Notes under the pieces: model-generated
Database searches by the model: none
What the model was told of the DNA's origin: nothing
What the model saw: the letters and a program-made list of their open reading frames with translations, nothing else
Translations under genes and position numbers: made by a program
In this document: positions 53,731-58,267 of the stretch, piece after piece
How the letters are laid out: the number at the start of each line of letters is the position of its first letter
Numbering within the stretch: position 1 is the stretch's first letter
Source of the DNA: Bacteroidota bacterium
GTDB lineage: Bacteria; Bacteroidota; Bacteroidia; UKL13-3
Assembly: GCA_040388375.1 (NCBI GenBank)
Contig: JAZKBU010000003.1
Location: forward strand, 434,001-498,000
Direction: 5' to 3'
Length of the DNA: 64,000 nt

Positions 53731-54666
53731 ATGAATTTACAACAACTGGAGTATATAGTAGCTATTGACAATTACAGACATTTTTTAAAAGCCGCCAATG
53801 CATGTAATATAACACAGGCCACTTTAAGTATGATGGTGAAAAAACTGGAAGAAGAATTAAATGCTATTATTTTTGATAGAAGTAAACAACCCGTTGTGCC
53901 TACTTTGGTAGGCGAAAAAATAATAGCACAGGCACGCAGAGTTTTAAACGAAGGCAAACAATTGAAAGAAATTGTATTGTCAGAACATGGGCAAATAAGC
54001 GGAGATTTAAAAGTAGGTATTATACCAACCATAGCACCTTATTTATTACCCTTGGTTTTAAAAAACATCAGTAAAAAGTATCCAAAACTGAATTTATTTA
54101 TATACGAGTTTACTACCAACATTATTATAGAAAAACTAAAATCAGGTGAAATAGATGTAGGTATTTTAGCAACACCTTTAGCAGAAAAAACAATTGTAGA
54201 AATGCCCTTATACTATGAGCAATATTTTTTATACATTAACAAAAATGAAACACAGTTTGACAAGAAATATGTTTTACCACAACATATAACACTCGATAAA
54301 TTGTGGCTTTTAGAAGAAGGGCATTGTATGCGCTCACAAATATTTAATTTTTGCGAGTTAAAGAAAGAACAACATTTTCAATCGCAATTTACTTATGAAG
54401 CAGGAAGCATTGAAACATTAATGAATTTGGTAGATAGCAACTATGGCGTAACCATTATTCCCGAGTTGGCTTGCTCAAAAATTTCAGCCAAACAAAAAAT
54501 GCAATTACGTTATTTTAAATCGCCCACTCCGGTACGAGAAGTAAGTTTAGTTACCCACCATCAATACGTAAAGGAAAAGCTGATAAAAGCCTTGAAAGAA
54601 ATTATTTTAAATAGTGTACCTGAGGAAATGAAAACAAAAGCCAATCAGAATATAATTGCCATTTAA
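53731..54666 (+). CDS. oxyR: LysR-type peroxide regulator OxyR
   Basis: This is a 311-residue LysR-family regulator. The N-terminal winged HTH (residues 1-65, with ANACNITQATLSMMVKKLEEEL) binds DNA and the rest is the sensing domain. The redox pair of E. coli OxyR is conserved at the same numbers: Cys199 and Cys208 in EGHCMRSQIFNFC, so it should form a disulfide with peroxide. It is divergent from dps-katA-ankyrin and shares a 126-base regulatory region with it. It overlaps the facing cytochrome gene by four bases. Confidence 0.95.
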   Translation: MNLQQLEYIVAIDNYRHFLKAANACNITQATLSMMVKKLEEELNAIIFDRSKQPVVPTLVGEKIIAQARRVLNEGKQLKEIVLSEHGQISGDLKVGIIPTIAPYLLPLVLKNISKKYPKLNLFIYEFTTNIIIEKLKSGEIDVGILATPLAEKTIVEMPLYYEQYFLYINKNETQFDKKYVLPQHITLDKLWLLEEGHCMRSQIFNFCELKKEQHFQSQFTYEAGSIETLMNLVDSNYGVTIIPELACSKISAKQKMQLRYFKSPTPVREVSLVTHHQYVKEKLIKALKEIILNSVPEEMKTKANQNIIAI

Positions 54667-55127
54667 TTGTCAATAGGCATTTTCCTGATTCTACGTAAAG
54701 GTCCGCTACAGTAGTTCTCGTGGCAGCCAATACAAGCTTGAATCATTAAATTATAATATTTTTTTTGTTCACCTGGGTGTGTAAAAACAGCTTTGTGTGC
54801 TGCCTGAAATACTTTGGCATTTTCAAAAAATTGAGGTTCTAATACATCCTTGTCAGTTGGTTCTACCAAATAAAACCGAATGAAAGGAAAACTTAAACTA
54901 TCTAAACTTTCACCACGTAAAAGTTTAGCTTTCATACTATCAGCATTAGCTGCCATTTGGCGCATCATCAAAGCCATTGGTTTCGGATGGTTAGGATCTT
55001 TAATGGTATTTTCTACTTTTAAAGAGTCCTTTGCTGGTTGTTGCTTGCTTTCAGGGCTATTATTACAGGCAGCTATGCCCAAAGCAACAGTAATAACCAA
55101 TAACAGATAGTATATTGTTTTTTTCAT
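54663..55127 (-). CDS. Monoheme c-type cytochrome lipoprotein
   Basis: This is a 154-residue lipoprotein. The signal MKKTIYYLLLVITVALGIAAC ends at Cys21. A single heme-binding motif, CIGCH, lies near 132-136 at the C-terminal end of a mostly helical domain and is followed by ENYCSGPLRRIRKM. The late CxxCH and helical character resemble cytochrome c prime, with the caveat that the family call is by eye. It sits in the periplasm or outer membrane, near the peroxide-defence genes, and overlaps oxyR by four bases. The electron partner is unknown. Confidence 0.88.
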   Translation of the reverse strand: MKKTIYYLLLVITVALGIAACNNSPESKQQPAKDSLKVENTIKDPNHPKPMALMMRQMAANADSMKAKLLRGESLDSLSFPFIRFYLVEPTDKDVLEPQFFENAKVFQAAHKAVFTHPGEQKKYYNLMIQACIGCHENYCSGPLRRIRKMPIDN

Positions 55128-55217: not shown

Positions 55218-55730
55218 TTATCTTAAGATAACACCATTGGCTTCAAACACCAATTCTTTTTTAGGTTCTTTAATAGCTGCAATAGCTTCTTTACTTTGGT
55301 TATCGTCCTTAGCATATTCTTTTAAATCAGCTATGCTTGTTTCTTCAATTTTAGCCACACCCTCTACTATAGCTGTTTTACCGGCACAATCCATTGGCAT
55401 AAAGAATTCGTAGTTTTTAAATGTAACGCGCATGCTTTCACCAGCGGCATTTTTTATATTCATCCAACAGCCTTTCTTTTGGCAAACAGCCTCTACTTCA
55501 CCGGTTACTTTAGTGTTTAATTCTTTCTTATCACCCATAGCTGTTTTTAAATCAGCTAAAGCAATTGCACCTTCTTCAGTTATTTTGTCGCCAAAATATT
55601 GCGCTTGAGCAGTACTGTCACTTTTTACTTCAGTACTATCAGTTGGTTTTGTTTCCTGTTTTGGTGTATTGTTATTTCCACATGAGAAAAGAGCCAAAAC
55701 AATGGCAGAACTTAAAATTATTTTTTTCAT
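55218..55730 (-). CDS. DUF4920 lipoprotein
   Basis: This is a 170-residue lipoprotein. The signal MKKIILSSAIVLALFSC ends at Cys17, then a Thr/Lys/Ser-rich linker to about 50. The domain has FGDKITEEGAIALADLKTAMGDKKELNTKVTGEVEAVCQKKGCWMNI...MRVTFKNYEFFMPMDCAGKTAIVEGVA, which is the DUF4920 pattern: an OB-like barrel with a conserved CxxxxCWM and a later Cys. The cysteines and Met may bind a metal such as copper, an inference from their spacing. It lies upstream of the cytochrome gene but is separated by a strong inverted repeat. Confidence 0.88.
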   Translation of the reverse strand: MKKIILSSAIVLALFSCGNNNTPKQETKPTDSTEVKSDSTAQAQYFGDKITEEGAIALADLKTAMGDKKELNTKVTGEVEAVCQKKGCWMNIKNAAGESMRVTFKNYEFFMPMDCAGKTAIVEGVAKIEETSIADLKEYAKDDNQSKEAIAAIKEPKKELVFEANGVILR

Positions 55731-55793: not shown

Positions 55794-55823
55794 TTGGTTT
55801 TATTCTGGTATTGAATATATTTG
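55794..55823 (+). promoter_or_regulatory. Promoter TTG-N19-TATATTTG for the unknown operon
   Basis: TTG at 55794-55796 and an exact -7 TATATTTG at 55816-55823 are 19 bases apart. The first ATG of the four-gene operon follows 24 bases later. Confidence 0.8.
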
Positions 55824-55847
55824 TTTGTATAGGTATAATACAATTAA

Positions 55848-56306
55848 ATGAGCAAAAACCTCTTTTTCATATTTATAATTTTCTCTTCAATGAGTTCTTG
55901 CTGTTGCGGTGATGATGGTGGATATGGGTCAATTCCAGGTTATAAAAGGAGAGTGAGAATTACCGATACTACCGATAAAATAGTAGAGATAAGTTATAGC
56001 AATTCAGATAAGGTATTCAAATCAAATGATACGATAGTTGATTTGGTTATTTCGGAAAATGTAGAGAACATTATTTATGTTAAAACCAAAACCCATTTGG
56101 ATACTATAGTTTTATACAATAAAGTCACCTATTACTATAACGAGGCAGATGAGTGTAGTGGTGCAGATATGTCTAAATATGTAGTTAAAAAACCAATTAT
56201 AGTAGCACATACTTTTAATAATGCTTATTTTAGAAGTGGTTCATATCAACGTAGTAGTTGGTATAATGATAGAATTGATTTTGATGATTTAATAATAACA
56301 CCTTAA
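55848..56306 (+). CDS. Unknown lipoprotein, first gene of a four-gene exported operon
   Basis: This is a 152-residue protein that I do not recognise. The signal MSKNLFFIFIIFSSMSSC ends in three consecutive cysteines (18-20), the first of which is the likely lipidation site; GDDGGYGS follows. The rest is beta-rich with alternating strands (VRITDTTDKIVEISYSNSDKVFKSNDTIVDLVISENVENIIYVKTKTHLDTIVLY) ending in an aromatic/Asp-rich tail. An excellent promoter precedes it and three exported-protein genes follow with 2, 0 and -4 bases between them. Function unknown. Confidence 0.8.
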   Translation: MSKNLFFIFIIFSSMSSCCCGDDGGYGSIPGYKRRVRITDTTDKIVEISYSNSDKVFKSNDTIVDLVISENVENIIYVKTKTHLDTIVLYNKVTYYYNEADECSGADMSKYVVKKPIIVAHTFNNAYFRSGSYQRSSWYNDRIDFDDLIITP

Positions 56307-56308
56307 AC

Positions 56309-56980
56309 ATGAAAATTTATTTGCTAATTACTTATATATTCATTCATGGTTTAAGTATAACCACTTATGCTCAGTACAGTAGTAGAAGGGAAAAATTAAA
56401 TGTAATTGGACTCCAAGCCAGGCTTATAGATTTAATGCCATTTGAACTTTCTTATTTACACCTTTCAGGTAAAAAATTACCGTCATATGCATTAAAATTA
56501 GGGTATGGTAAAGGTTACAAAAATGCGGTAGGAAATGCTGGAATATATGTGTATCCGCCTTCTGACCCAAACTTTAGTATTGACCAATCTTTTACTGCCT
56601 ATTTTATAAAACCGGGCATTGTTCTTTATGCTAAAAAGGGAGCTATTCTTAGGTCTGCTTGTATACTAAATTACTGTATTGCTCAAAGTAAAGATAAAAT
56701 GGTTATTACCTCACAGGATCAATTATTTGGAACGCTACAACAAACCTATAACGAAACCAATACTTATCAATCAATAGAACTCGAGGCTAATCATTCATTT
56801 TACAGGACATCTTTGTTTGAATTAACTTTTGGTTATACCGCTGGCTTTAAGTTTCAGAACCCAATACCATTTACTACTGTTGTTAATGGTATCGAGAATG
56901 GTTCCACATACTCACCAGGACAGGGAGTAGGACGGTTTGTTTATGTTAATTTATATATTGGTTTTTCAGTAAAATTATAA
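56309..56980 (+). CDS. Unknown outer-membrane-like protein, second gene of the operon
   Basis: This is a 223-residue exported protein, signal MKIYLLITYIFIHGLSITTYA. The mature part reads like an outer-membrane beta barrel of about eight strands: alternating polar and hydrophobic residues with aromatic caps, for example SYALKLGYGKGYKNAVG, SFTAYFIKPGIVLYAKKGAILRSACILNYCIA and LFELTFGYTAGFKFQ, ending in the strand FVYVNLYIGFSVKL. The closing residue is Leu rather than Phe. I do not recognise a family. The ATG is two bases after the first gene's stop. Confidence 0.78.
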   Translation: MKIYLLITYIFIHGLSITTYAQYSSRREKLNVIGLQARLIDLMPFELSYLHLSGKKLPSYALKLGYGKGYKNAVGNAGIYVYPPSDPNFSIDQSFTAYFIKPGIVLYAKKGAILRSACILNYCIAQSKDKMVITSQDQLFGTLQQTYNETNTYQSIELEANHSFYRTSLFELTFGYTAGFKFQNPIPFTTVVNGIENGSTYSPGQGVGRFVYVNLYIGFSVKL

Positions 56981-57478
56981 ATGAAAAGTAATTTAACTAT
57001 TATATTATTCCTGTTGCAATTTGTATGGTGCACGAATTGTTATGCCCAAGTAAAGGAAGTGGTTTTTACCAATAAAAAAAAGGGTTCGCAGGAAGTCTAT
57101 AAACTACCACATCAGGCTGAAATTAATTTAATAGATGAGAATCCTAATTTTTTTAGCAACGTAATTTTAGATTCAGTAAGCAATGATACTTTTTACATTA
57201 CCAATCCCAGGAATGCCAAACAGCAATTAGCTGTACCCTTTAATGTGGTTAATTCAATAAAGCTATCCGGGCAATCTTTGAAGCGAGGCTTTCGGGTATT
57301 CCATATTACATTTCTTTCCTCATTGTTGCTTATAGGAATAATTACGCCTAAGTATAAGTACGATACAAATATAATAACTATCCCTCTTTTGCTGGGCGGA
57401 GTTGGCTTTTTAATAGGGATTCCATATACCAAAAAATATCACAATACCGGTTTTGAAATAAAGGGGAGAAACAAATGA
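56981..57478 (+). CDS. Unknown exported protein with beta domain and two membrane segments, third gene
   Basis: This is a 165-residue protein. After the signal (MKSNLTIILFLLQFVWCTNCYA) comes a small beta domain at about 24-95 (VKEVVFTNKKKGSQEVYKLPHQAEINLID...SNDTFYI...LAVPFNVVNSIKL), then two hydrophobic segments at about 107-121 and 129-147, and a short basic end. The fourth gene encodes the same layout, with matching DT-F/L-Y and V/I-P-F/I-N turns, so they look like diverged paralogues. Similar beta-plus-two-membrane proteins occur widely in Bacteroidota without a known role. The stop overlaps the fourth gene's start by four bases. Confidence 0.78.
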   Translation: MKSNLTIILFLLQFVWCTNCYAQVKEVVFTNKKKGSQEVYKLPHQAEINLIDENPNFFSNVILDSVSNDTFYITNPRNAKQQLAVPFNVVNSIKLSGQSLKRGFRVFHITFLSSLLLIGIITPKYKYDTNIITIPLLLGGVGFLIGIPYTKKYHNTGFEIKGRNK

Positions 57479-58071
57479 AAAACGTTATTCTTTTCCTTTT
57501 TATACTATTTACAATCAATACTTTCGGACAGGATAGAAGGGGTATTTATTTTCGGAATAAAAACAACAATAAGATGATTAAGTTGTGTTTTAATGACAGG
57601 ACTGAATTTAAAATAAAAGACAACTACTTAAAAGAATTAAGTGATTCTATACAGGTTAAACATAAAATGTCAGGAAGCCTTATCGCTACTTTAATAATTG
57701 CAAGTTTAGATACCTTATATTTTGAAGACTCTCTCCATATTCCAATTAACCAATTAGAATGGATTTATACAAAATCAAATTCCTATTACGCCAACATGAT
57801 TGCATTTACCGGAAGTATGGTTTTATTAGGTTTTTTAAACTATGATATATTGTATAATAATCAAAGCATAGGATCACTGATTACCTGTAATATACTAATA
57901 GGGGGTAGTTCACTTATAATGATTCCTATTGTTATTAGGAAAAATGTAGTTTATACCGAAAATTGGGAGCCGATAGCAATTGCTAAAAGAAATAGAAACA
58001 CTTTTAAACCCAATAGTAAAACACATACCATTTTTGATAGATTAGAATTACCTTCTCCTCAACGGAAATAA
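57475..58071 (+). CDS. Unknown exported protein, paralogue of the third gene
   Basis: This is a 198-residue protein. The signal is MKNVILFLFILFTINTFG. The beta domain (RGIYFRNKNNNKMIKLCFNDRTEFKIKDNYLKE...SLDTLYFEDSLHIPINQLEWIYT) and two membrane segments near 105-121 and 132-151 mirror the third gene product. It differs by a longer, basic C-terminal tail (IAKRNRNTFKPNSKTHTIFDRLELPSPQRK). Start ATG overlaps the previous stop by four bases. About 120 AT-rich bases with no clear terminator separate it from the tRNA. Confidence 0.78.
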   Translation: MKNVILFLFILFTINTFGQDRRGIYFRNKNNNKMIKLCFNDRTEFKIKDNYLKELSDSIQVKHKMSGSLIATLIIASLDTLYFEDSLHIPINQLEWIYTKSNSYYANMIAFTGSMVLLGFLNYDILYNNQSIGSLITCNILIGGSSLIMIPIVIRKNVVYTENWEPIAIAKRNRNTFKPNSKTHTIFDRLELPSPQRK

Positions 58072-58193: not shown

Positions 58194-58267
58194 GGTATCG
58201 TGGCCGAGTGGCTAGGCAGAGCTCTGCAAAAGCTCCTACAGCAGTTCGAATCTGCTCGATACCTCCA
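58194..58267 (+). tRNA. tRNA-Cys (anticodon GCA)
   Basis: The acceptor stem GGTATCG / CGATACC (58194-58200 with 58257-58263) pairs fully. The anticodon stem GAGCT / AGCTC encloses CTGCAAA with anticodon GCA at 58226-58228. The T-arm is AGCAG-TTCGAAT-CTGCT at 58240-58256. The discriminator is U at 58264 and CCA is encoded at 58265-58267. U73 and the GCA anticodon both fit cysteine. Confidence 0.97.

Follow-up and report, generated by a model that had tools for sequence, protein, structure and literature searches.

A modular lipoprotein-barrel cassette in uncultured Bacteroidota, its core most likely a diverged branch of the DUF6452-DUF6048 pair

What are four tightly packed genes for exported proteins, none with a direct match to a named family, doing side by side? 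The question comes from a 64,000-nucleotide stretch of DNA (the window), positions 434001-498000 of contig C3 in the 3.97-Mb draft genome of an uncultured Bacteroidota bacterium. An earlier note on this DNA described an operon with an excellent promoter, a triple-Cys lipoprotein, a barrel-like outer-membrane protein and a pair of paralogues (here p3 and p4), and could name none of the four. The open reading frames lie where that note placed them, with the same gaps of +2, 0 and -4 bases, gene 4 overlapping gene 3 by 4 bases (Table 1). Scans of the four proteins against Pfam, NCBIfam and PADLOC gave no credible match, nor did profiles of three of the cassette families against PDB sequences. With no match in PADLOC, a defence system was ruled out as the identity of the cassette.

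All four genes are under purifying selection, with dN/dS between 0.05 and 0.38 in the informative, closely related pairs; two other pairs were uninformative, one being near-identical (dS 0.01) and one saturated. Because of these values and because the gene order is conserved across genera, the four are not chance open reading frames. Signal sequences are present in 4/4 of the proteins, and the reading of the genes as one exported, operon-like set is supported. A Bacteroidota-type promoter-like site does lie ~25 bases upstream of the gene 1 ATG and is plausible from its sequence. However, "excellent" was too strong a word for it, as the + strand of the window contains 2 such sites against 4.8 +/- 2.4 expected from simulated sequence, which is no enrichment.

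On its upstream side, the cassette is divergent from a gene for a DUF4920 lipoprotein, and the same neighbour occurs in two other genomes of the genus (L028 and L029). Another, small lipoprotein encoded in the window bears the haem-binding motif CxxCH (as CIGCH), and a gene related to it adjoins the DUF4920 gene in L029 as well. A tRNA-Cys (GCA) gene lies 3' of gene 4.

Table 1. Features of the locus and of related loci. Positions in the first eight rows are those of the window.
Feature	Location	Strand	Description
Small lipoprotein gene	54663-55127	-	CxxCH haem-binding motif (CIGCH)
DUF4920 lipoprotein gene	55218-55730	-	divergent from cassette
Promoter-like site	55794-55823	+	Bacteroidota-type, plausible: TTGG-18-TATATTTG
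Gene 1, lipoprotein	55848-56306	+	152 aa; lipobox-type Cys, C18 the putative lipid anchor, then acidic/Gly-rich residues
Gene 2, barrel	56309-56980	+	223 aa; predicted 8-stranded outer-membrane beta-barrel, OmpA/OprF/OmpW-like
Gene 3, p3	56981-57478	+	165 aa; signal peptide, small beta domain (judged by pattern), two hydrophobic segments; paralogue of gene 4
Gene 4, p4	57475-58071	+	198 aa; plan of gene 3 plus C-terminal tail with F[DE]R motif
tRNA-Cys (GCA)	58194-58267	+	3' of gene 4
Complete four-gene order	window, G036, G009, G010, G012, G016, G008 (twice), G005, G007, G015		lipoprotein-barrel-p3-p4
Partner-keeping copies	G010: L034, L038 twice; G013: L032, L046; G018: L033, L049		lipoprotein-barrel pairs; three in G010
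Second pair, same genome	G000:C9:187124-188210 (L089 5122-6211)	-	lipoprotein-barrel pair
Pair variant	L108 1501-3236 (G037:C30)		same genus; lipoprotein, barrel, DUF3575-type barrel
DUF3575-type barrel triplets	L096 4021-5927; L098 4298-6204; L100 4269-6138		third genus (g13)
~300-aa protein family	L037 5773-6741; L039 3776-6670; L044 5803-6726		second genus
p3-like genes	L052 5891-8938 (G044:C15)		same genus; six in a row

A conserved core with optional partners

The earlier note had staked its reading on relatives keeping the gene order, and the order is kept across two genera. Lipoprotein, barrel, p3 and p4 follow one another in 11 copies from 10 genomes, two of which (G012 and G016) are close to one another; most copies have 4-base overlaps, and -4 is the typical gap between cassette genes across loci. 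Among 64 genomes of the same family, a single-sequence search found the barrel in 21 and p3 in 4, and a profile raised the count for the barrel to 30, the weakest matches being DUF3575-like. The relatives are Bacteroidota MAGs; the search for them with five close barrel sequences returned four loci, all in MAGs. Class-wide absence of the cassette is to be read as a lower bound, with 7-9 first-look candidates scored per genome.

Partial sets also occur. One genome (G003) carries barrel-p3-p4 where a contig ends, another (G040) has lipoprotein-barrel-p4, and a third (G001) carries three sets of the latter kind in tandem; repeated cassettes are found in G001, G008 and G010. Lipoprotein-barrel pairs number 33, from 22 genomes, four genera and about ten neighbourhoods. 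The cassette is modular, with an invariant core of lipoprotein and barrel and with p3 and p4 as options; copies have neither of these, p4 only or both. Since the flanking genes differ between groups (the DUF4920 gene, c30, c35/c36, c4/c5 and others), the conserved order is not mere frozen synteny.

Small barrels appear in further arrangements. One locus in the same genus has a lipoprotein, a barrel and a DUF3575-type barrel in succession, which is another variant of the pair, and conserved triplets of DUF3575-type barrels are found in a third genus. In the second genus, proteins of ~300 aa are encoded directly upstream of or between cassettes, with up to three in tandem. They possibly combine a small N-terminal beta domain with a DUF3575-like barrel. 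The p4-like domain aligns to them with an hhalign probability of 59% (E 9.4e-5, signal peptides included), and dedicated profiles kept the two apart when loci were mapped.

The lipoprotein and its barrel

An AlphaFold2 model of the gene 2 product, built on an alignment of five sequences, has eight strands (mean pLDDT 71, pTM 0.67). Searched against the PDB with Foldseek, the model is closest to OmpA-type barrels (E 1e-5), and its Z scores in VIA-align are 16.0 for a Thermus major OMP, 15.8 for OprF, 14.6 for OmpA and 14.0 for OmpW. Model and fold match bear out the barrel that had been read from the letters, and predict an 8-stranded outer-membrane protein of the OmpA/OmpW type. Fold and strand number are those of the OmpA N-terminal domain, OprF, OmpW, NspA and OmpX. 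However, identity to these barrels is ~10% or less, and the window barrel is paired with a lipoprotein and has no C-terminal peptidoglycan-binding domain: Pfam matches none, and the last strand of the model ends at residue 222 of 223, leaving no periplasmic domain.

Gene 1 encodes a lipoprotein that has no Pfam match even at E 1. Among 28 homologues, C18, the first of the three cysteines, is the only invariant one; a triple cysteine is therefore not a feature of the family. In Bacteroidota lipoproteins, an acidic motif after the lipidated cysteine leads to surface export, and the signals that were tested lie at +2 to +6 (PMC5080379). Residues +2 to +8 include at least one acidic residue in 23/28 of the lipoproteins and at least two in 16/28, and K and R are nearly absent after the lipid Cys. 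From these acidic residues, the lipoprotein is likely to be exposed at the surface. In surface-exported lipoproteins of Bacteroidota, the signal (LES) lies soon after the cysteine and consists of K or a polar residue and then two acidic residues. The window lipoprotein starts CCCGDDGGY, with D at +5 and +6 in a Gly-rich context; this is not exactly one of the tested signals, and surface export may not apply to it.

No relationship was detected between lipoprotein and barrel themselves. Their trees agree. The distance correlation is 0.78, a value that 0/1000 permutations reach, and 13/24 splits are shared. Shared species history contributes to this agreement. However, several genomes hold two or three pairs from different clades, and in each case the partner sits in the matching clade (Table 1). 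The trees thus indicate that the lipoprotein-barrel pair duplicates and moves as one unit.

Probable kinship with the DUF6452-DUF6048 pair

A class-wide search with the barrel profile led to a genome of another family (G392), in which the barrel is preceded by a DUF6452 lipoprotein (27.3 bits against a cut-off of 27.1; E 4.3e-6). At DUF6452 loci, the next gene is an adjoining, overlapping, barrel-like gene in 32/32 cases, and the five of these barrels that were scanned are DUF6048 (E 6e-23 to 6e-41). The window and 32 further pairs have the same layout, with the lipoprotein directly upstream of the barrel.

Profile comparisons point the same way. Over their full length, signal peptides included, cassette lipoproteins match DUF6452 with 95% probability (E 3.4e-8) and cassette barrels match DUF6048 with 91% (E 9.9e-7). 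For mature proteins only, the barrel still matches DUF6048 in hhalign at 88% (E 3.2e-6) and scores 45.5, compared to a maximum of 16.2 in 60 column shuffles. The mature lipoprotein scores 22.2 against DUF6452, compared to 14.5 for the reversed control and a shuffle maximum of 13.7, with an hhalign probability of 10-20%. Crossed comparisons stay at or near background. DUF3575 (PF12099) was also considered as the home of the barrel. Its members are small Bacteroidota barrels with distant profile similarity, but the mature-only score is weaker than for DUF6048 (30.3 vs 45.5), and the DUF3575 triplets of the third genus have no lipoprotein partner.

The genome that contains the window carries a second lipoprotein-barrel pair (Table 1). 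Of 851 ORFs searched with the two DUF profiles, its members score best (E 5.9e-9 for DUF6452, 5.7e-6 for DUF6048). Its mature proteins match the DUF profiles and the cassette profiles alike, and its counterpart in G036 (L090) matches the DUF profiles only weakly. By these matches, the second pair bridges the cassette to the DUF6452-DUF6048 pair.

The two systems are alike in several ways. In both, a lipoprotein gene stands just upstream of a barrel gene with a short overlap, the profiles of both members are similar, less strongly so for the lipoprotein, the barrels have D-P-x-[WYF]-G-like and P-G-x-G motifs, and acidic residues follow the lipid Cys. They differ in that the window proteins fall under the Pfam thresholds (PF20050 and PF19515), that the lipoprotein N-terminus is rich in Gly, Tyr and Asp where many DUF6452 proteins have CEKDDIC-like starts, and that the cassette is multiplied in some genomes and extended by p3 and p4. 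Further neighbours were not seen at the listed DUF6452 loci, within fetched stretches that are too short to rule them out. DUF6452 does not exceed its Pfam cut-off in any genome of this family or in any of the 28 lipoprotein homologues. Likewise, the window barrel has no Pfam match at E <= 1, and the 27-row barrel family matches neither DUF6048 nor DUF3575. Because the thresholds are unmet, we do not file genes 1 and 2 as members of these families.

Could genes 1 and 2 instead be an independent pair, unrelated to DUF6452 and DUF6048, that converged on the same layout? The missing direct Pfam matches would fit such an origin, as would the fact that small barrels are alike by architecture, the barrel family also scoring, more weakly, against DUF3575 barrels. 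We nevertheless regard convergence as improbable: both members match the two DUFs in the same order, no shuffle scores as high as the mature-only comparisons, and the second pair of the genome, an intermediate, matches on both sides. The profiles make a strong case that the barrel is distantly related to DUF6048, and a weaker one that the lipoprotein is related to DUF6452. Genes 1 and 2 are most likely a diverged, multiplied, lineage-specific branch of the DUF6452-DUF6048 pair. Whereas the earlier note could put a name to no gene of the four, the first two can now be linked to these families; genes 3 and 4 belong to a wider Bacteroidota family for which Pfam has no model.

p3, p4 and the possible working of the cassette

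The resemblance between p3 and p4 had been noticed from the letters, and it proves real in profile-profile comparison (E 3.7e-12 with signal peptides, 3.1e-8 without), with a score of 53.8 against a maximum of 15.2 in shuffled controls. Homologues of the two fall into two clean groups, with the gene order p3-p4, which dates the duplication to before the two genera split. By these comparisons the two are ancient paralogues. Each carries an export signal, and in the joint alignment a Q where cleavage is likely to occur is invariant. A hydropathy scan picks two hydrophobic segments in each, and the sequence pattern points to a small beta-rich region. The plan is shared by a wider Bacteroidota family (L121, L163), which aligns mature-only to p4 at 81% and to p3 at 54%; the one member that was scanned has no Pfam match.

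How p3 and p4 sit in a membrane is less clear. In the window proteins and their homologues, K and R together number ~2.0-2.5 before and after the hydrophobic pair and 0.7-1.0 in the loop between, counts for which the simple hydropathy scan mis-picked a few segments. With an exported N-terminal domain, the positive-inside rule would predict the reverse, which makes ordinary inner-membrane insertion uncertain. One contig of the same genus encodes six p3-like genes consecutively with no lipoprotein or barrel (L052). Because p3-like genes exist without the core, and the core without p3 and p4, the link between the two halves of the cassette is partial.

Complexes of a barrel and a surface lipoprotein are a hallmark of Bacteroidota (PMC12578637). 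In Bacteroides thetaiotaomicron, Bt1926-Bt1927 comprise an S-layer lipoprotein and a predicted 8-stranded barrel, its putative anchor or secretion partner (PMC12578637). The partnership of a surface lipoprotein with a small barrel is comparable in kind; the lipoprotein there, at ~100 kDa, is far larger than the one of 152 aa in the window.

On balance, we favor a lineage-specific outer-membrane cassette in which a diverged DUF6452-DUF6048 core is joined by p3 and p4 and the lipoprotein is anchored at the surface on the barrel; we hold this to be probable, with real room for doubt. The barrel would sit in the outer membrane. The lipoprotein, once lipidated, would reach the surface by way of its acidic N-terminus, with its cognate barrel as anchor or escort, a role of the kind proposed for the barrel of another Bacteroidota pair; the two would presumably dock as a one-to-one complex. 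p3 and p4, optional partners that the core gained in some of the lineage, would act jointly on the periplasmic side, tethered by hydrophobic hairpins.

A stronger version, a self-contained trans-envelope assembly that extends the DUF6452-DUF6048 pair in modular fashion by coupling lipoprotein and barrel at the surface to a periplasmic p3-p4 heteromer, seems to us unlikely. Less likely again is a trans-envelope sensor or relay, in which surface lipoprotein and barrel sense the outer membrane and pass a signal to p3 and p4 at the inner membrane, like RcsF-OmpA-IgaA of E. coli. The parallel is an analogy only: one unit holds an outer-membrane lipoprotein, a barrel like OmpA and two periplasmic proteins associated with a membrane, and RcsF, a lipoprotein exposed at the surface, binds both OmpA and the inner-membrane protein IgaA (PMC7553776). 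However, the part of OmpA that RcsF binds is the periplasmic C-terminal domain (PMC7553776), which the cassette barrel lacks. Furthermore, p3 and p4 show no cytoplasmic signalling domain and are missing from many copies, and the cassette has no regulator, with neither IgaA-like nor Rcs regulator genes. Finally, that many copies lack p3 and p4 and that p3-like genes stand alone elsewhere might suggest exported neighbours without common function, kept together by slow rearrangement, but this is very improbable given about ten different neighbourhoods with changing flanks around the core, repeated cassettes, stop/start overlaps, partner-specific co-divergence and, for p3 and p4, the same order in two genera amid different flanks.

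The lineage-specific cassette with a DUF6452-DUF6048 core bears on more than this locus. DUF6452 and DUF6048 occur across Bacteroidota and are adjacent at every locus examined, and our literature search found no paper naming either. A lineage with no Pfam-detectable copy most likely carries a diverged, multiplied and extended version of the pair, which would connect several sets of unknowns and mark lipoprotein and barrel as a single unit that evolves together. That the barrel carries its own lipoprotein to the surface, or holds it there, is testable in cultivable species. The trans-envelope assembly, if true, would show a role for the DUF6452-DUF6048 pair, whether in exporting or anchoring surface lipoproteins or in sensing at the envelope.
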